A DNA stretch of 64,000 nt from Verrucomicrobiota bacterium (GTDB taxonomy: Bacteria > Verrucomicrobiota > Verrucomicrobiia > Opitutales > UBA2995), in the NCBI GenBank assembly GCA_027622555.1, contig JAQBYJ010000017.1, positions 1 to 64,000 of the forward strand, in the 5' to 3' direction. Shown one piece after another: positions 6,314 to 31,463 of the stretch (position 1 is its first letter; each line of letters begins with the position of its first letter). The notes under the pieces were generated by a model. It was not told the origin of the DNA. It saw only the letters and a list, made by a program, of their open reading frames with translations, and searched no databases. A program made the position numbers and the translations under genes.

Positions 6314-7810
6314 CTAGTTTTCCAACCACCGCATGAGCTCCGGGTCGTTCAAAGCAGTATCAGCGGTTTTGATTAGTAACTGTTTCAGCTTACCAGAAAG
6401 ATCCAAAGCTATTTCGCGTTGGCGACTGTAAAAATTTATCAGCTCATCCGGATCTTTATCTAAGTCGATCAACCACGGTGGTTCACTTTTGGAGATGACC
6501 AATTTATAGCGATAGTCGATCGCCGCTAACCAATAAGGGGGCGGCCCCAATGGACCCATCACACCACGAAGATAAACGACCTCTTCCTCTGTTACAACTT
6601 TCGCAGAACTCAAAAACTGACGGGATACATCACGCCCATGAATATCTCCCAAACTGTTCTCGCTTTTCAAAAGGCTTAACATCGTCGGTCCAAAGTCAGC
6701 TGTTGTCATTGCAGAATGAATTACCTTCCCCTCTTTAATCTTCCCCAGATACCGAACGATCAAAGGCGAAATAGCTGAACCTTCATAGGGCGAGCGCTTG
6801 TTCAAGCGCCCGTGTTCACCCAACAGGTCGCCGTGGTCTGAAAGAAAAACGACGATGGTATTCTTATCGAGTTCCTGCCGCTCAAGAAATCTCAACAACT
6901 TACCGACATTGTCGTCTATCAATCGAACCATGCCAAAATACCCGGCCATATCTTCCTCTTGAAACAATAGATCATTGGTAAGGTCCCCCTCGTTTCCCAC
7001 GATCCAGTTGGGCGATTCCTCGTTTTTTTCAAAAAGCGTTCTAGGTGATTCGAAATTGAAGTGGTTGTACATCGTATCGTAAGGCGGCCGAACCGTATCC
7101 GGCTGATGCGGATCGGGAATACTGAGCATCACACAAAACGGCTCATCCTTGTTCCTTTCCATAAACTCAATAGTTCGGTCCGTTAAGAAATCGGTTGGAT
7201 AAGTCTCCTCGTCAGCATCACCCAAATCGTAGGTAGGTTCACCATTCTTACCTATGGGTGTATTCACCCGCGGTCCGTTCGGTGTATCTTCCATATTTTT
7301 CCAATGCCCGCGGTTATACATGTAACGATTATCCTCCCAACCAAACTTTCGTTCAGGTGCCCAACCAGGTTTCGCTGTGCCTTCCAAATGCCATTTTCCG
7401 AAATATCCGGTTTTATAACCTTGCCGGCTCAAAACCTCGGCGAATGTAAGTATACCGTCTTTTAGGGGACTATCATTTACAGGCACACCGGTGGCATGAG
7501 GGTAAAGCCCTGTCATCAAAGAAGCACGGGACGGTCCACACAGAGGAGTCGTACCATAGAAACTGGTACAAATTGCCCCATCCCTGGCCAACGAATCAAT
7601 ATGCGGGGTCTCAACTGCGATTCCTTCCCCCCAGACAAATGCCTGATCCTCCGACAGTAGTTCCCGATAGCAACCCAATGTCCGAAAATTGTGTTCGTCG
7701 GTGCAAATAATCAAGAGGTTAGGCCTGTCTCCTCCGAAAACCAGCAGTGGAGTAACAATGATCCACAGAACAAAATTGAGGCACTTTATTTTCAGGACTT
7801 TAAGCATCAT
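6314..7810 (-). CDS. Sulfatase (CGPSR type)
   Basis: Type I sulfatase of 498 residues with a signal peptide (about residues 1-26). The formylglycine core is C91-G-P-S-R95, followed by the ASLMTG helix start. Metal ligands are D38 and E39 in CTDEHN and the late DHGD segment (FLSDHGDLLGEHG). The product should remove sulfate esters from a carbohydrate in the periplasm after conversion of C91 to formylglycine by an FGE encoded elsewhere. It lies upstream of, and on the same strand as, the DUF3604 gene, and is divergent from the permease/sulfatase operon across 185 bp. Confidence 0.9.
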   Translation of the reverse strand: MMLKVLKIKCLNFVLWIIVTPLLVFGGDRPNLLIICTDEHNFRTLGCYRELLSEDQAFVWGEGIAVETPHIDSLARDGAICTSFYGTTPLCGPSRASLMTGLYPHATGVPVNDSPLKDGILTFAEVLSRQGYKTGYFGKWHLEGTAKPGWAPERKFGWEDNRYMYNRGHWKNMEDTPNGPRVNTPIGKNGEPTYDLGDADEETYPTDFLTDRTIEFMERNKDEPFCVMLSIPDPHQPDTVRPPYDTMYNHFNFESPRTLFEKNEESPNWIVGNEGDLTNDLLFQEEDMAGYFGMVRLIDDNVGKLLRFLERQELDKNTIVVFLSDHGDLLGEHGRLNKRSPYEGSAISPLIVRYLGKIKEGKVIHSAMTTADFGPTMLSLLKSENSLGDIHGRDVSRQFLSSAKVVTEEEVVYLRGVMGPLGPPPYWLAAIDYRYKLVISKSEPPWLIDLDKDPDELINFYSRQREIALDLSGKLKQLLIKTADTALNDPELMRWLEN

Positions 7811-7995: not shown

Positions 7996-9405
7996 GTGAC
8001 CCAATCTGATTACTCAACCGACCCTGACCACCAGGCCAGTTCATTTGGCGAATACGAACGCGAACCTGTACCTGAATCACAGTTGAAGGGGGCCAACAAG
8101 TTTTGGGGCATGTATGCCGGAGAGCACTGTGCTGGAACAGAGTTTATGATTGGCCCCCTGTTTCTACTGAACGGTGTAAGCCTTCAAAATATCTTTTCCG
8201 GCCTGTTACTTGGAAATTTGTTGGCAGTTCTTAGTTGGCGTTACATTTGCGCACCTATTGCCACGCAAGCCCGACTGACCTTATACTACCATTTGGAAAA
8301 AATCGCAGGAAAGCATCTGGTGGTAATTTACAATCTGGCGAACGGCATCCTCTTTTGTTTTCTCGCCGGCGCAATGATCACGGTGTCTGCCACAGCGGTT
8401 GGGATTCCATTTGATATGGAAATGCCAACCAGAGAAAATATTCTCCCTACGAGTGTTTCATTTGTACTCATAGTGTTTGTTGTCGGCTTTTTCATTTCGA
8501 TCGTTGCCGCCAAGGGATACGATACGGTCGCGAAATTTGCCAATGTCGCTGCTCCATGGATGATTTTGGTTTTTCTTGCATGCGGCCTGGTGGCCTTCAA
8601 GCAGCTGGATGTTTCTGACTGGTCTGCTTTAAATGCTCTTTGGTCTGAATCGATTGTATTCGCGCAGGAAGGTCAGTCCGAATCGTCCATGAGTTTCTGG
8701 AGCGTGGTGTTCTTTGCCTGGTTTTGCAATGCAGCCATGCATTTCGGTATGTCCGATTTGTCGGTTTTTCGTTTTGCGAATAAAGGAAGTTACGGCTGGG
8801 CAAGCTCAGCTGGTATGTATGTAGGTCATTACATGGCCTGGATTGCGGCAGCATTCATGCTCGCCGCTCAAATCAAGCTGCTCCGTGATTCCAATCCTGT
8901 GCCAGGACCCATGGCTTATAGCGTAACAGGACTGGCAGGAATCATCTGTGTCATTGTTGCTGGTTGGACTACGGCAAACCCAACTATTTACCGGGCAGGC
9001 CTTGCCTTTCAAGCTATCATTCCCAAAGCGTCTCGATTTCGAGTAACCCTGTTTACCGGTTTCATTGCCACCTTGGCAGGCACTTTTCCAGCAATCGCAT
9101 GGCAGCTTTTGGATTTTGTCGGAATCTATGGAACCATCCTTGCTCCTATAGGGGCTATTATTTTCTTCGATTGGCATTTCAAACGAAAGGGCGATGGAAG
9201 TAGCTTACAAAAATCCGAAGCCTCAACCTCATTCAGTGTTCCCGTACTTCTGTCCTGGTTAATACCGGTAGGAATTGCCCTGTATTTCTATAAATTCCAA
9301 GGTGTGTCACCTTGGTTCTTGCCATTGCCTTGCTGGATAGCTTGCGGAATACTTTACTTAATCCTTAGCCGCAACTCGAAGCCAACCATAGTCGAAACTA
9401 TCTAA
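7996..9405 (+). CDS. NCS1-like permease
   Basis: A polytopic membrane protein of 469 residues with about 11-12 hydrophobic segments, resembling the nucleobase:cation symporter-1 (cytosine/purine/hydantoin permease) superfamily. The N terminus reaches the membrane after a short acidic leader and the sequence GMYAGEHCAG. The substrate is unknown: PVC members often sit beside sulfatases, so an organic solute other than a nucleobase is plausible. The stop codon overlaps the start of a 59-residue membrane protein gene by one base (TAATG), and a sulfatase follows, so the three genes probably form one operon. A shared promoter region with the divergent sulfatase lies at 7811-7995. Confidence 0.75.
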   Translation: MTQSDYSTDPDHQASSFGEYEREPVPESQLKGANKFWGMYAGEHCAGTEFMIGPLFLLNGVSLQNIFSGLLLGNLLAVLSWRYICAPIATQARLTLYYHLEKIAGKHLVVIYNLANGILFCFLAGAMITVSATAVGIPFDMEMPTRENILPTSVSFVLIVFVVGFFISIVAAKGYDTVAKFANVAAPWMILVFLACGLVAFKQLDVSDWSALNALWSESIVFAQEGQSESSMSFWSVVFFAWFCNAAMHFGMSDLSVFRFANKGSYGWASSAGMYVGHYMAWIAAAFMLAAQIKLLRDSNPVPGPMAYSVTGLAGIICVIVAGWTTANPTIYRAGLAFQAIIPKASRFRVTLFTGFIATLAGTFPAIAWQLLDFVGIYGTILAPIGAIIFFDWHFKRKGDGSSLQKSEASTSFSVPVLLSWLIPVGIALYFYKFQGVSPWFLPLPCWIACGILYLILSRNSKPTIVETI

Positions 9406-9584
9406 TGATGAAATACGTATTGAAAATACAGGCACGCCTTGGCCTGGTTTTAACCATTGTTCCGCCGGTGCTTTATTTATTAGGTAGCATGGAACTGTCG
9501 GAGGTAAAAATGACCATGTTGATCGGAACGATTATGTGGTTGGTAATTGCCCCGGTAATTCAGAGTCAGAATGAACAAAGATAG
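9405..9584 (+). CDS. 59-residue small membrane protein
   Basis: A short ORF whose ATG overlaps the permease stop codon by one base and which ends 3 bp before the sulfatase start. The product begins MMKYVLKIQARLG and has two hydrophobic stretches: about residues 12-27 (including LVLTIVPPVLYLLG) and 36-51 (TMLIGTIMWLVIAPV), separated by a short charged loop. The translational coupling to the permease and the tight fit between two real genes support that it is coding. By analogy with small accessory subunits of some transporters it could assemble with the permease, but that is inference. I do not recognise a named family. Confidence 0.7.
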   Translation: MMKYVLKIQARLGLVLTIVPPVLYLLGSMELSEVKMTMLIGTIMWLVIAPVIQSQNEQR

Positions 9585-9587
9585 GCC

Positions 9588-11072
9588 ATGATCAATCGAA
9601 GAGACTTTATCAAAACAACGGCAGCAGCATCTTTAGCCGCTTCACTTCCCGCTGGATGCTCAAAAGCAGAAGCAAAATCGATGAAACCAAATATACTCTA
9701 TATATTCTCCGACCAATGGCGTCAATGCGACCACGGCTATGCCGGGAATCCAGATGTCATCACGCCCAACATTGATCGACTTGCTGGCCAAAGCATTAAC
9801 TTTACTCACGCAGTTTCCGGAATTCCGGTATGTTGTCCGCATCGCGCAACACTCATTACAGGAAAATACCCACTCACTCACGGTCTTTATTTAAATGACC
9901 TGTCCCTGGCGCCTGAACATCAAAGTATTGCCCATTGCCTGAACGATGCTGGTTATAAAACGGGTTGGATTGGGAAATGGCACATCGACGGACAAGGTCG
10001 CGAAGAATTTACTCCTCCGGAACGTCGCCAGGGATTCGAATATTGGAAAGCCCTGGAGTGTACTCATGACTACAATAATTCTCCCTACTTCGGGGATTCA
10101 TCTGAAAAGAAATATTGGAAGGCTTACGACGCCATCGAACAGACCAAAGACGCTCAGTCATATTTGGAGCGGCACGCACAGTCGAATTCTGATTCTCCTT
10201 TTGCGCTATTTCTTTCCTGGGGGCCACCTCATGCTCCCTATCACACCGCTCCAGAAAAATACCATAAGTTATACGAAGACAAAGAAATCATTTTACGAAA
10301 AAACGTGCCTCAAAGCGAAAGGGAAGTAGCGATGAAAGATTACAAAGGCTACTATGCTCACATGACGGCACTGGACGATTGCATGGGAGATCTCATGAAA
10401 ACACTCGAAGAAACAGGTTTGTCGGAAAACACCATTCTCGTATACACCTCAGACCATGGGGACATGTTACACTCGCGTGGAGCAATGAAGAAACAACAAC
10501 CTTGGGACGAATCGTTACGAATTCCGTTTCTGCTTCGATGGCCGGAGGCGTTGAAGAACAAAGCACGAGCTATTTCGATGCCCATCGACACACCCGACAT
10601 CATGCCAACCTTGCTTGGTCTTACTCAAACCGCAATTCCGGATGAGGTCGAAGGCATTAATAGATCATCGGTCATTTTGGGTACCGAAGAGCCGGATAGC
10701 GAACACGCAGCATTAATGACTTGCCCGTCACCGTTTGGTCAATGGACTCGCGATAAAGGTGGGCGAGAGTACCGGGGCGTACGAACCACACGCTATACCT
10801 ATTGCCGCTCACTGGATGGGCCCTGGTTGTTGTACGATAACGAATCGGATCCCTTTCAAATGGACAATCTGGTAAACAAACCTGAATTTGCTTCACTGCA
10901 GAAAACTCTCGATGATCGACTTAACCTACTTTTAAGGAAGACAAGGGATGAATTTTTGTCAGGTCCCGAATTGATTGCCCGATCCGGTTACATTGTCAAA
11001 GCATCAACCGAAACTGTTGATTATAATATTCCATTCAATCCGGCGAATATTACAAAAAGTCCCTTAGTGTAG
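9588..11072 (+). CDS. Tat-exported sulfatase (CCPHR type)
   Basis: Type I sulfatase of 494 residues. The N terminus has a twin-arginine motif (NRRDFIK, 3-9) followed by an Ala-rich segment ending in PAGC24, so it is probably Tat-exported and may be lipidated. The modification core is C82-C83-P84-H85-R86, keeping CxPxR with His in the usual Ser position. The first metal site is SDQWRQ (41-46), with Asp-Gln rather than Asp-Asp. The late YTSDHGDM segment supplies further ligands. It is third in the operon with the permease and the small membrane protein, and a DUF1592 cytochrome gene starts 55 bp after it, so it heads the first sulfatase/DUF1592/DUF1552 set of the window. Confidence 0.9.
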   Translation: MINRRDFIKTTAAASLAASLPAGCSKAEAKSMKPNILYIFSDQWRQCDHGYAGNPDVITPNIDRLAGQSINFTHAVSGIPVCCPHRATLITGKYPLTHGLYLNDLSLAPEHQSIAHCLNDAGYKTGWIGKWHIDGQGREEFTPPERRQGFEYWKALECTHDYNNSPYFGDSSEKKYWKAYDAIEQTKDAQSYLERHAQSNSDSPFALFLSWGPPHAPYHTAPEKYHKLYEDKEIILRKNVPQSEREVAMKDYKGYYAHMTALDDCMGDLMKTLEETGLSENTILVYTSDHGDMLHSRGAMKKQQPWDESLRIPFLLRWPEALKNKARAISMPIDTPDIMPTLLGLTQTAIPDEVEGINRSSVILGTEEPDSEHAALMTCPSPFGQWTRDKGGREYRGVRTTRYTYCRSLDGPWLLYDNESDPFQMDNLVNKPEFASLQKTLDDRLNLLLRKTRDEFLSGPELIARSGYIVKASTETVDYNIPFNPANITKSPLV

Positions 11073-11127
11073 ATTGAAAGAAAACTTTGCGATTCCTTCA
11101 TTCGCCAGTTTTGTTTCTAAATAACCC

Positions 11128-13113
11128 ATGAATATCTATCCCCTTAGATCGAAATTTTCAAAGCCTGTATTGGCAGTTCTCACAATCGCTTTCGCTGCCA
11201 ATAGTTTTGGTGTTGATTTCGATGCGGATATTCAACCCATTCTGCAAAAGTACTGCATCAACTGCCATGGTGGTGAAAAAGTTAAGGGCGAGGTAGACTT
11301 CACTCTGATTAACAACGAAGCGGATGTGACAGCACATTTTGAACTTTGGGAGACGGTCTCGGATAGATTGGCCTATGAAGAAATGCCTCCTGAAGAAGAG
11401 GACCTACGGCCAAGCCTTGAAGAAGCACAATTAGTTATTAACTGGTATGAAGATCGCTTTGTTAGATCCGTTGAAGCGCGTCCAGGTGAATTCAAGCCAC
11501 GACGATTATCTGCTCCCGAATACCGAAACACACTCCGAACACTGTTTGGATTCGATCTTGAGGTAGCCATAATAGCGGCGGAACAAACCAAGGCAGAAAG
11601 ATCCCTCGTAATTAAACTGCTTCCAACCGATCCACCTGGAGAAAGCGGATTTATCAATGACACAAATGCAGCCCGCTTGTCTTCCAATATTTGGGAGCAG
11701 TATGCCTACCTTGCTGATCGAGCACTTGAGGAATTGTTCTCTGATAACAGGCTTCCTCAACTTGAAAAGTTAATCGGGGAAAAATTGCCTGATGCCTTTA
11801 CTCCGACCCAATTGAGTCAAGCTCAAGCCAAGTCGATTCTGCGGACCTTTTCAACACTTGCCTACCGTCGCCCACTTCCAAGAAATGCGATTAACAAAAT
11901 CCTGAGCACGCTTAAAGGCCTTGAAGGTCAGGCTCTCGTTGATGCTACCAAAACGGAAATGAAGGTGCTTTTAGTCTCTCCTCAGTTTCTTTATCGTGGG
12001 CATCTGCTGGAAAGCAAGGTTGGCAAACAACAATTGGTCGATAAATATGAACTGGCTGAACGTCTATCTTACTTCTTGTGGGAAGATATGCCGGATGAAG
12101 AACTGATCAAAGTAGCAAACAAAGGTCGCTTGGATGATCCCGATGAAATGACCATGCAGATCGATCGAATGTTAGCCTCTCCGAAGGCACGAAGTCTTGC
12201 CGGAAGTTTTGGCGGCCAATGGCTCGATCTTGCAGATATTGATCAAGCCGCCGAAGATGTCACCGAACGTGAAGCACTGCGCAGCCAGCCACTGGATTTT
12301 CTCAATTATCTCTTTACTGAAGATCGACCTGTCATGGAGCTCATTGACTCGGAGATTGTGTTTACCAATTACATCACAGCGTCCTTCTACCCCAAAGACA
12401 GCGAACAATTGAAGAAGTACGTTAAGTTCAAGGGAATAGAACGGGAATTGGTTCCCAACCAACGTATCACTCTCGAGCACACAGAAAGTCGCGGCGGCAT
12501 TCTCACGATGCCTGGAATCCTTGCTATGAATCGAGGTCCTATATTGCGCGGCACCTGGATGTTGAGGCGAATTATGGGAGAACGTCTCGGAGAACCTCCT
12601 GCCGATGTTCCCGCAATCAAGTCCGCCATGCCCGATGAAACACTTTCGTTTCGTGAACGTTTTGAACAGCATAGAAGTGATCCGACCTGCGCTCGTTGCC
12701 ATGATCGCATCGACCCCTTCGGCTTTGCTTTGCAGGCCTATGACGACAGTGGCGCATTTAAACTGGATCCCAATTATAAAGCACCACGCAGGATATCGGA
12801 ACATGAAGACTCGCTGGAAGTGATCGATACGTCCGGGCAATTACCAAGCGGCGAAGGTTTCGAAGATTTCGAAGGCCTTAAACAATTACTTCTTGGAGCC
12901 AAGCGCCAGGATATCATCCGGAATGTGGTCGAGCAAGTATTGGCATACGCTCTGTGCAGAAAACTCGAATCCTTCGATCGCCCTACAGTAACCACGATCA
13001 CTGAAAAGATTGACGAAACCAATGGTTCATGGCGTGATCTTTTCATCGAAGTAGCCTTAAGCCTACCATTTCAACAGACCTACATCTCCCCTAGCCCGAA
13101 GAACGAATCATGA
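11128..13113 (+). CDS. DUF1592-family di-haem cytochrome protein
   Basis: A 661-residue exported protein (signal about residues 1-29) with the PVC domain series: N-terminal cytochrome-like domain with C43-I-N-C46-H47, DUF1587 (about 120-190), DUF1595 (about 230-295), DUF1592 (about 305-435), DUF1588 with a second haem-c motif C521-A-R-C524-H525, and DUF1585 at the C terminus. Two CxxCH motifs imply two covalently bound haems, so an electron-transfer role in the periplasm is likely, although no reaction is known. Its stop codon overlaps the start of the DUF1552 gene by four bases (ATGA), indicating translational coupling and probably a functional pair. Confidence 0.9.
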   Translation: MNIYPLRSKFSKPVLAVLTIAFAANSFGVDFDADIQPILQKYCINCHGGEKVKGEVDFTLINNEADVTAHFELWETVSDRLAYEEMPPEEEDLRPSLEEAQLVINWYEDRFVRSVEARPGEFKPRRLSAPEYRNTLRTLFGFDLEVAIIAAEQTKAERSLVIKLLPTDPPGESGFINDTNAARLSSNIWEQYAYLADRALEELFSDNRLPQLEKLIGEKLPDAFTPTQLSQAQAKSILRTFSTLAYRRPLPRNAINKILSTLKGLEGQALVDATKTEMKVLLVSPQFLYRGHLLESKVGKQQLVDKYELAERLSYFLWEDMPDEELIKVANKGRLDDPDEMTMQIDRMLASPKARSLAGSFGGQWLDLADIDQAAEDVTEREALRSQPLDFLNYLFTEDRPVMELIDSEIVFTNYITASFYPKDSEQLKKYVKFKGIERELVPNQRITLEHTESRGGILTMPGILAMNRGPILRGTWMLRRIMGERLGEPPADVPAIKSAMPDETLSFRERFEQHRSDPTCARCHDRIDPFGFALQAYDDSGAFKLDPNYKAPRRISEHEDSLEVIDTSGQLPSGEGFEDFEGLKQLLLGAKRQDIIRNVVEQVLAYALCRKLESFDRPTVTTITEKIDETNGSWRDLFIEVALSLPFQQTYISPSPKNES

Positions 13114-14910: not shown

Positions 14911-16002
14911 TTATAGGTCCCGATAGGGTCGCAGTTTTTGCCAATCAAATTCAACTCCGATGCCGGGAGTGTCAGGAGCAACAGCAAGACCGTCTTTTTT
15001 CACAAGCGGTCGCTTGGTATACTCATCTATTGGAAAACTATGGTGCTCAACCCACCCGCCGTTTGATTGGGAGGCAACAAGGCTTACATGCAGTTCATGC
15101 ATACCATGGGAGCACACGGAAATTCCATAAACTCGCGACATTTGAGCGACCTTAAGCCAATTGGTTATTCCGCCGCAGTTGGATGCATCTGGTTGAATAA
15201 ATGAGAGTTTTGCCTTATCAAAGGCGTATCCGAATTCATGGAGGGTATGAAGATTCTCACCCATGGCCAAGGGAATCTTAACTGCGTCGGCAATTTTTCC
15301 ATACCCGGAATAATCGTCGGGTATGGTAGGCTCCTCGAACCAAAAAATATTATAGGGTTCCACTTCTTTGGCAAATTCAATGGCCTTGGTTACCGTCATG
15401 GAAAAATTGGCATCAATCATGAAAATGACGTCGTCACCAATCAATTTCCGGACTTCCTTTATACGTTCAATGTCCTCATCTGAATCAGATTTACCCACTT
15501 TAATTTTTACGGCATTAAATCCATCCGCCAAATGGTTCCGAACGCTATCCAAAAGCTTTGGAAGCGGGAAATCCAAATCAATTCCTCCTCGATAAACCTT
15601 ACAATAAGGGTTATCTCCCTGCAGGTACTGCCACAAAGGTTGACCTGCTTCTTTGCAACGAATATCCCAAAGAGCGATATCCAACGCAGAAATAGCAAAT
15701 GAGGCAATTCCACCACGACCTACATAGTGAATATACCATTCGCAGAATTCATTGATTGCCTCAACTTCGGTTCCTTCCTGCCCTTTCAGTGCCGGTGCCA
15801 AGTCAAAGTCCAACATCGCTTTGATAGCCTGTCCACCTCGACCTCCAGTGTAAGTATAACCGTTACCCACGCTACCGTCTTTCAAATAAACTGCTACAAC
15901 TACTAATTCAAAATGACTGTGCATCCCGTGTTGTGCATCATACAGCCGCTCGACTAACGGAATATTATAAAGCTTGGTCTCGATTCTAATTATCTCACTC
16001 AT
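14911..16002 (-). CDS. Enolase-superfamily sugar-acid dehydratase (mandelate racemase type)
   Basis: A 363-residue cytoplasmic enzyme of the mandelate racemase subgroup. The catalytic Lys pair is K166-I-K168, the metal ligands are D197 (MIDANF), E223 (FEEP) and E249 (MGEN), and the Asp-His dyad is D272 (QPDAS) with H299 (CSHGMHE). With these residues intact it should abstract the alpha proton of a sugar acid and dehydrate or epimerise it. The exact substrate cannot be deduced. It lies 20 bp downstream of a KduD-like dehydrogenase gene on the same strand, which fits a two-step sugar-acid pathway. Confidence 0.85.
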
Positions 16003-16022
16003 AAGTTAATCGTTGGCATTCA

Positions 16023-16793
16023 TTATCGTCCCATCCAGCCGCCATCCACCAGGAGAGTTGTTCCATGGACATAATTGGCTGCATCAGAAGCGAGAAACAC
16101 AACCGGTCCTTTAAAATCGTCCGGTTCGCCCCAACGACCAGCCGGAATCCTGGATAAAATTTGTTCGCTGCGGACGGGATCCTCCCTGAGGGCTTCCGTA
16201 TTTTTGGTAGCGATATATCCTGGAGCGATAGCATTAACATTAACACCCTTCCCTGCCCATTCGTTGGCGAATGCCATGGTCAATTGGCCGATTCCACCTT
16301 TGCTAGCTGCATAACCAGGCACTGTGATACCGCCTTGGAAGGTAAGTAATGAAGCCGTAAATATGACCTTGCCGCTCCCACGTTTCAGCATCTCTTTACC
16401 AAATTCACGGGTGAGTATGAACTGGGCATTCAAATTTACTTCGATCACTTGGTCCCAATATTCATCGGTATGCTCGGCAGCAGGCATACGCAGGATGGTC
16501 CCGGCATTATTAATTAAAATATCGATGCAAGGGTGCTCAGATTTAACAGCGTCAATAAAATGATACAAGGCCGCTCTATCGGAAAAATCACAATCGTAAC
16601 CTGAAAATTGTCCTCCCAAAGATTTAACCGCAATCTCAAGTTCGGAATCTTTAAGTGGCATGTGAGCTGCTACGCCGATGATGTTTGCCCCGGCATCAGC
16701 CAAGGCAATTCCCATCGCTTGACCAATACCTCGACTACAGCCTGTGACCAGGGCCGTTTTACCTGAGAGATTAAATGATTCCAACGTATTCAT
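16023..16793 (-). CDS. SDR oxidoreductase, KduD-like (2-deoxy-D-gluconate 3-dehydrogenase type)
   Basis: Short-chain dehydrogenase of 256 residues from the chosen start (MNTLESF). It has the Rossmann motif TGCSRGIG (17-24), NNAG (95-98), catalytic Ser148, and Y161/K165 in YAASK. The segment FNLSGKTALVTG and the ending TTLLVDGGWMGR resemble KduD-type enzymes, which interconvert keto-deoxy uronates. An upstream ATG at 16820 would add nine residues, but family members normally start close to FxLxGK, so I prefer 16793. Neither start has a good Shine-Dalgarno sequence. The gene is in line with the downstream dehydratase and probably shares its transcript. Confidence 0.85.
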   Translation of the reverse strand: MNTLESFNLSGKTALVTGCSRGIGQAMGIALADAGANIIGVAAHMPLKDSELEIAVKSLGGQFSGYDCDFSDRAALYHFIDAVKSEHPCIDILINNAGTILRMPAAEHTDEYWDQVIEVNLNAQFILTREFGKEMLKRGSGKVIFTASLLTFQGGITVPGYAASKGGIGQLTMAFANEWAGKGVNVNAIAPGYIATKNTEALREDPVRSEQILSRIPAGRWGEPDDFKGPVVFLASDAANYVHGTTLLVDGGWMGR

Positions 16794-16880
16794 AGTTCGG
16801 ATAAACCAAGTTTGTAACATTCATAATTCGAAAGAGTTGAGAGTTTTGGCTGGAATCGAATTTCCATGGTAAGGGATGCA

Positions 16881-30230: not shown

Positions 30231-31463
30231 CTACCAATTCGTAATTGATCCATCTCCTCGTTGAAATACGGGATGATCGTAAGCGGATGGTTTGGTAATT
30301 ACATTTACCAACTCAATATGCTTGGGATCAAATTCCACACCTAACCCAGGTCTTTCATTCGGGTAGAGTTTCCCGTTCTTAAAACTAAGATAATCGTCGT
30401 TGAGATAACTTGTTTTGGTAGGGCGATCGTTAGTGATTTCGGTCATAACAAAACCGGATGACGAAGCTAGCACATGAACCAAGGCAGCGGTGGAAATCGG
30501 ACCCGTAAAATGGGGAATCATCCCGACGTAATGTGTTTCGCACAGTGCGGCTATTTTCTTAAGCTCGGTAATTCCGCCAACGTTCGGAAGAGTGACTCTG
30601 GAGTGATCAATTAAATTTTCCTCAATCAATTCGTTGATATCCCATCGGTCTCCAAATTGCTCGCCGACCGCAATGGGTACATTGATCCGATCTCTGAGCG
30701 CACGATAAACACCGGCATTTTCCGACCGCACCAAATCTTCAACAAACAGCGGTTTTAGCGGTTCTATCATTCTAGCCAGAGTAACAGCTTCAGCTGTATC
30801 GAAGCGGGTATGAAAATCAGTAGCCCACTGGCCTTTTTCGCCAACCCCTTCACGGACCTCCGAGTAAAAACGAAAGTTCTCATCCATGAATTTGTGAGAA
30901 TCGAAAACCGGACCTTCCGAAACTGTGCCGACCCGATATGCGTAAAACCCGGCTTCGATACACGCCCTCGCTGTCTCTTTGACCGATCCTTGATCAGGGA
31001 ATCCCGTGGAATAACAGGGCAGGAAATCTCGAGTCAATCCTCCCAAAAGTTCATAAATTGGCGTCTTGAAATATTTTCCTTTTATATCCCACAACGCCAT
31101 ATCCAAACCACCCATGGCGTGAAGTCGCTCCCTACCCGACGGATAAAAATATTGGCGATACACTTTCTGCCAAAGATGCTCGATCCGAAATGGATCTTCA
31201 CCAACCAACATCTCCGCACAGTTCTGGATCATTTCCTTAGATCCACCTTCGCCGATTCCACTTATCCCAGCGTTGGTTTCAATCACCACGATGTCTCTTG
31301 CCTGGGCGAAAGTCGGCTTCAAGTAAGTCGGATCCCTATAATGACTCACCTTGGTTATTTTGATGCCAGACTTGATGTCTGCATTTAGAGCAAATGGCCC
31401 TGCCAGAAGCGCACTCGCGCCCATCAAACTTTGTCTAAGAAATTTTCTGCGATTGTAATTCAT
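30231..31463 (-). CDS. Enolase-superfamily dehydratase with Tat signal (galactonate/mannonate dehydratase-like)
   Basis: A 410-residue protein with a twin-arginine leader (NRRKFLRQS, 4-12) and a hydrophobic stretch to about residue 28, so it is probably exported, unusual for this mostly cytoplasmic superfamily. Metal ligands are D216 (ATDFHTR), E242 (FVEDL) and E268 (VGEQF). H218 and H318 (IPHFTGP) match the His pair of D-galactonate and mannonate dehydratase-type enzymes. The KxK motif of the mandelate racemase type is absent (AYR at 175-177), which is expected for this subgroup. The substrate is probably a sugar acid. It is divergent from a CoA-transferase gene. Confidence 0.8.
   Translation of the reverse strand: MNYNRRKFLRQSLMGASALLAGPFALNADIKSGIKITKVSHYRDPTYLKPTFAQARDIVVIETNAGISGIGEGGSKEMIQNCAEMLVGEDPFRIEHLWQKVYRQYFYPSGRERLHAMGGLDMALWDIKGKYFKTPIYELLGGLTRDFLPCYSTGFPDQGSVKETARACIEAGFYAYRVGTVSEGPVFDSHKFMDENFRFYSEVREGVGEKGQWATDFHTRFDTAEAVTLARMIEPLKPLFVEDLVRSENAGVYRALRDRINVPIAVGEQFGDRWDINELIEENLIDHSRVTLPNVGGITELKKIAALCETHYVGMIPHFTGPISTAALVHVLASSSGFVMTEITNDRPTKTSYLNDDYLSFKNGKLYPNERPGLGVEFDPKHIELVNVITKPSAYDHPVFQRGDGSITNW

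Follow-up and report, generated by a model that had tools for sequence, protein, structure and literature searches.

Between the genes for a permease and a sulfatase, a 64,000-nucleotide stretch of contig JAQBYJ010000017.1 from a Verrucomicrobiota bacterium (hereafter the window) carries an open reading frame (ORF) of only 59 codons. Is a frame this short a gene, and, if so, what does its product do beside the permease? A preliminary description took it for a small transporter subunit. The features of the window that bear on the question are as follows.

6314..7810, minus strand: divergent sulfatase gene (PF00884, E=3e-48), part of the local sulfated-glycan context
7996..9405, plus strand: NCS1-like (LeuT-fold) permease, probable symporter of an L-rhamnose-type sugar, judged by the predicted fold and the rhamnose context of the family; the start codon, GTG 7996, is uncertain
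9405..9584, plus strand: small ORF, proposed two-TM hairpin subunit; 59 aa from ATG 9405, or 58 aa from ATG 9408
9408..9410, plus strand: likely true start codon of the small ORF, at which same-genus homologues begin
9438..9485, plus strand: hydrophobic stretch 1, predicted TM helix 1 (TM13 of the putative complex), from the sequence and from a helix in the model of a fused homologue
9513..9560, plus strand: hydrophobic stretch 2 with an invariant Trp, predicted TM helix 2 (TM14), likewise a helix in the model
9588..11072, plus strand: sulfatase with a TAT signal (PF00884, E=1e-53; TAT_signal), 3 bp downstream of the small ORF

A short ORF between the permease and sulfatase genes

The window sequence and the ORF list agree on a frame that runs from ATG to TAG with 59 open codons. 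Its first ATG and the permease stop TAA (9403-9405) have one base in common in the junction TAATG, and three bases (GCC) separate its own stop from the sulfatase ATG at 9588; the one-base overlap and the 3-bp gap had both been reported in the preliminary description. The junction reads TAATGATG and contains a second ATG, 2 bases after the permease stop. Since the homologues from the same genus start at this second Met (9408), the product is likelier to be 58 residues long (MKYVLKIQARLGLVLTIVPPVLYLLGSMELSEVKMTMLIGTIMWLVIAPVIQSQNEQR) and not to overlap the permease gene. The overlapping 59-residue product described earlier thus exists as a frame, but its start is probably not the one used. Hydrophobic stretches lie at about residues 12-27 and 37-52 in the 59-residue numbering, two as had been described, with a basic N-terminus before them and a short polar tail behind. 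The downstream sulfatase gene is probably co-transcribed with the small ORF.

The small gene is conserved beside the permease gene

Judged by its conservation, the small ORF is a real gene. Matches to its product within the genus reached E values down to 9e-21, and a profile scan detected the gene in 30 of 388 genomes of the phylum; when these 30 loci were opened, the small gene lay directly after a homologue of the window permease in every case. The permease was found in 42 of the 388 genomes, and these include all 30 that carry the small gene (hypergeometric P = 2e-35 for co-occurrence across the 388). Beyond the phylum, the small gene was present in Bacteroidota, Planctomycetota, Kiritimatiellota and Lentisphaera. 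Where it is a separate gene, it starts between -14 and +44 bases from the permease stop in 77 of 79 instances, 23 of them (23/79) with a coupled overlap of -4 or -1.

The dN/dS ratio of the small gene was 0.09-0.48 (median 0.22) in 46 pairs with usable dS, individual values being rough because dS often exceeded 1; ratios this far below 1 indicate that the gene is under purifying selection. A search beside homologous permeases and an estimate of dN/dS were the checks that the preliminary description had proposed, and both spoke for a gene: the peptide is conserved beside the permeases, in the phylum and in further phyla, rather than lacking there. Among 73 distinct sequences the Trp of the second helix was invariant (73/73); frequent as well were a Phe that follows this Trp (82%), a Lys ahead of helix 2 (75%) and, in helix 1, a Pro (67%). 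The small protein gave no consistent sequence family match in Pfam, NCBIfam or the PDB. One candidate, the SE1626 family (NF047566), was rejected because the score lay below its cut-off of 70 bits: the match was to the window small protein only, at 17 bits (E=0.004).

The permease has the predicted fold of NCS1 transporters

We modelled a homologue in which permease and small protein form one chain (L008). The AlphaFold2 model had a pLDDT of 85.5 and a pTM of 0.84, and the best Foldseek / VIA-align matches to its core were CodB (Z 35.6) and Mhp1 (Z 30.6), followed by sodium/solute symporters (SSS) at Z about 25; SGLT-MAP17 complexes were also among the structural matches. On this model, the permease is a 12-TM LeuT-type core of the CodB/Mhp1 (NCS1) fold. 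The matches stop near residue 453, and the hairpin, residues 454-511, lies beyond them. With its short linker it was predicted with moderate confidence (pLDDT about 70-80); in a long-form paralogue (L192) the hairpin helices reached pLDDT values of mostly 90-96.

The fold bears out the earlier designation of the permease as NCS1-like, but the sequence models go less far. The window permease matched no Pfam family, the NCS1 model included; PF02133 (NCS1) found 1 of 31 relatives (E=3e-6), and the NCBIfam cytosine permease model NF008241, whose cut-off is 326 bits, scored the window protein at 42 bits. Formal membership of NCS1 (TC 2.A.39) was therefore rejected, and we use the term NCS1-like only. 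In most NCS1 proteins a TM3 Trp stacks on the nucleobase and a TM6 aromatic residue is present (PMC9379551). The pair, TM3 Trp and TM6 Phe or Trp, encloses the base from both sides. Counted over whole stretches rather than by residue-level superposition on CodB, the TM6 region holds a Trp in 29 of 29 permeases and the TM3 stretch any Trp in 2 of 29, which suggests that the permease lacks the base-stacking Trp of TM3. The permease resembles CodB and Mhp1 in its predicted core fold, and possibly in the aromatic residue of the TM6 region, but differs from them in the absence of a clear Pfam NCS1 match, in the L-rhamnose context of its family, in the additional TM13-14 hairpin and apparently in a TM3 stretch mostly without Trp.

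The small protein is fused to the permease C-terminus in several lineages

In L008 and L013, the small-protein domain forms the C-terminal end of a single permease of 506-511 aa, and the same in-frame fusion is found in L053, L097 and L121. Gammaproteobacterial plasmids and a group of paralogues have a long form, in which the permease is 569-586 aa and ends in a polar linker and a terminal hairpin. The small-protein profile matched the long-form tails weakly in L142, L187, L189 and L192 (E 0.0007 to 0.02), and those of L141, L144, L145 and others more poorly or not at all; the long-form tail is likely homologous to the small protein. In a tree built from 122 permeases, switches between fused and separate states number at least five, all five forced by the starred branches.

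Apparent fusions in Flavobacteria (L075, L077, L078 and L094) were rejected, since a stop codon through which tblastn had read parts the two genes. Of the genomes of the phylum that seemed to have the permease only, several contain long-form paralogues with a C-terminal tail of their own, and G178 has a small ORF that fell below the threshold of the scan. At one further locus (L190; G373:C215:19500-25000) the permease belongs to a single frame of 955 codons, which continues into a hydrophobic tail and then, as judged by eye, a NapH-like and ferredoxin-rich domain; the two parts may be genuinely fused, or a stop may have been missed or the frame be in error.

The strongest evidence for the small protein as part of the transporter is this series of natural fusions, and their recurrence in frame implies that the transporter tolerates or favours the hairpin at a 1:1 ratio and in a fixed place. 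Together with the conservation beside permeases and the purifying selection, the series supports the small transporter subunit of the preliminary description, and we conclude that the small protein is most likely an undescribed subunit of a little-known transporter family. The small protein would be a separately encoded C-terminal domain (TM13-14) of the 12-TM LeuT-fold symporter. Its net charge, +1.66 at the N-terminus and -0.11 in the loop, fits an N-in, C-in hairpin added to a cytoplasmic C-terminus. Such a hairpin would pack against the C-terminal helices of the permease, at the cytoplasmic end of the core, and may stabilise or tune the symporter.

The small gene can be parted from the permease gene, or lost

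Within the genus, G004 is without the small gene behind its permease and retains a copy elsewhere (L152, positions 2339-2506 of G004:C387), directly behind an unrelated 406-codon gene and on a different contig from the only permease of the family detected in that genome. Ten Bacteroidota genomes likewise have the small gene somewhere other than directly behind the permease gene. Eight of these were opened, and all eight have the order permease - rhaD - small - rhaI - rhaB-like, so that the opened copies share one rhamnose operon with the permease and were rejected as counter-examples. Retention of the small gene when parted from the permease gene fits the expectation for a subunit.

In one clade of Bacteroidota, the permease gene sits in rhamnose operons and the small gene is missing from its surroundings; nor did those genomes of the clade that were searched contain the small gene at other sites, two weak partial matches to long frames being set aside. 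This indicates that the permease, at least in some versions, can work without the small protein; the hairpin would therefore be an accessory part that was lost in at least one line. Among the Cyclobacteriaceae, L083, L089 and L093 carry just after the permease gene an ORF of 54-60 codons, two-helix but strongly diverged, whose overlap is of the ATGA type, and the sister genomes L081, L082 and L088 have no small ORF after the permease gene. These bacteria may be in the course of losing the small gene.

Gene context of the permease family points to L-rhamnose

By tblastn, rhaA, rhaI or rhaD lay within 6 kb of the permease gene at 60 of 80 public loci, a figure that does not count independent events, the 80 being the best permease matches with near relatives included. 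Many of the 60 also carry an FGGY kinase gene. The commonest neighbour was L-rhamnose isomerase (RhaA), with 17 of 99 proteins scanned; rhamnulokinase, RhaD and alpha-L-rhamnosidase were found as well. FMN-dependent L-lactate dehydrogenase-like genes accounted for 9 of the 99 (loci L055-L114), in agreement with expectation, since L-rhamnose breakdown yields lactate.

On Pseudoalteromonas and Catenovulum plasmids the permease gene follows rhaD and rhaI and is annotated 'nucleoside transporter'; 'hypothetical protein' is the other name that plasmid records give to members of the family. In Alteromonas sp. 76-1 the permease gene is carried on the ulvan plasmid, 5' of a sulfatase gene and with rhaD about 10 kb further; sulfated rhamnose is abundant in ulvan (PMC6431674). 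This context argues for L-rhamnose rather than a nucleobase, and we conclude from it that L-rhamnose or a closely related deoxy-sugar is most likely the substrate of the permease family. A long-form paralogue on a Pseudoalteromonas plasmid (L144, 7998-9719, annotated 'hypothetical') lies next to a mannitol dehydrogenase family gene (9780-11303) and a carbohydrate kinase gene (11306-12223). These neighbours suggest that the wider family is not confined to rhamnose and carries other sugars or polyols.

A conserved place in L-rhamnose catabolic operons was found for the family and not for the window locus, where no rhamnose gene lies near the permease gene and the neighbours are sulfatase genes. 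Other genes of the window, at 14911-16820 and 30231-31463, look by their N-terminal sequences, inspected by eye, like enolase-superfamily sugar-acid dehydratases and a short-chain dehydrogenase; close to the permease gene, they could form a non-phosphorylated pathway for sugars.

Alternative explanations

The conserved gene, its link to the permease, the natural fusions, the rhamnose context of the family and the predicted fold together make it probable, in our judgement, that the ORF encodes a TM13-14 hairpin subunit of an NCS1-like sugar symporter whose family substrate is L-rhamnose or a related deoxy-sugar; physical contact, stoichiometry and a stabilising or tuning role would follow from this reading. 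A frame open by chance, or a spacer that merely couples translation of the permease and sulfatase genes, would fit an ORF that is short, overlaps at its start and ends 3 bp before the next gene; homology at the protein level across phyla, dN/dS well below 1, the invariant Trp and the fusions led us to reject that explanation as extremely improbable. The small protein might instead be a transient helper in insertion, folding, protection from proteolysis or regulation, and not a stoichiometric subunit. Such a role would suit the clade that keeps the permease in rhamnose operons and lacks the small protein, the operons and the G004 genome in which the two genes are not adjacent, and the faster divergence of the small protein (dN/dS about 0.2, versus about 0.05-0.1 for the permease). 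Repeated fusion in frame to the permease C-terminus, with the fixed place and equal ratio that are evidently tolerated or favoured, speaks against a passing contact, and we regard a helper as unlikely.

A larger share of doubt attaches to the substrate. A true subunit could serve a window permease that carries a sulfated or methylated sugar, another deoxy-sugar or a sugar acid instead of free L-rhamnose, and this we hold to be a serious possibility, if the less probable one. Sulfatase genes flank the window permease, another genome of the genus (G003) keeps the permease and small gene pair without rhaA and without a close rhaD match, and the paralogous long form adjoins the mannitol dehydrogenase family and sugar kinase genes mentioned above. 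Against this, rhaA, rhaD and a gene for an FGGY-type kinase are present on a different contig of the window genome, and in the permease tree the window clade falls within the rhamnose-linked section. Rhamnose is thus well supported by gene context as substrate for the permease family, and only likely for the window locus, because of the sulfatase neighbours there and of G003. If the preferred assignment holds, the window pair would import a rhamnose-type sugar that the neighbouring sulfatases free from a sulfated polysaccharide.

Discussion

Small subunits of sodium/solute symporters are known from Escherichia coli, in which YjcH is encoded beside ActP and YhdT beside PanF; the gene for the small subunit is usually 5' of that for the large one. 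Like the small protein, these subunits (TIGR03647) have two TM segments and fewer than about 100 aa and are encoded beside a LeuT-fold symporter; their partners, in contrast, belong to the SSS family. TIGR03647 matched the small proteins at noise level (1 of 41 members, E=0.085), below the profile cut-off, and membership was rejected. Human MAP17-SGLT2 is similar in that a small membrane protein is bound to a LeuT-fold sugar symporter, and different in being eukaryotic; the small-protein profile found no related PDB chain, and we know of no fusion of MAP17 to SGLT2. By analogy, and without sequence membership, MAP17/SGLT2 and the bacterial SSS small subunits would be the closest functional parallels. 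Since small helper subunits are already known for other LeuT-fold transporters, the novelty of the present one is moderate.

GapMind lists an L-rhamnose transporter of Echinicola, Echvi_1617, which may belong to the family of the window permease; if it does, the permease substrate is not new, and the small subunit still would be. The L-rhamnose transporters surveyed previously are RhaT (DMT), RhaSTPQ/RhaFGHJ (ABC) and RhaY (MFS), none of them NCS1-like in that survey (PMC3870299); the window permease shares with these its probable substrate and operon context and differs in protein superfamily. A literature search that covered few subscription journals retrieved no paper on an NCS1-like rhamnose transporter or on this small protein, and the partner gene, of about 59 codons, is described in none of the family libraries searched (Pfam, NCBIfam, PDB).

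Rhamnose-rich sulfated glycans make up a large share of algal carbon, and Verrucomicrobiota are named among their consumers; the published annotation of methyl-pentose uptake in this phylum comprises the proton symporters FucP and RhaT only (PMC8857213). Whether the present proteins represent an undescribed and widespread kind of L-rhamnose symporter, with an NCS1-like core and a hairpin that was repeatedly split off and re-fused, serving marine organisms that degrade sulfated polysaccharides rich in rhamnose, is in our estimate evenly balanced. A permease of this family could work poorly when cloned without its partner. Versions with the hairpin fused, split off or missing would offer a natural series for studying how a LeuT-fold symporter is affected by a small accessory subunit.
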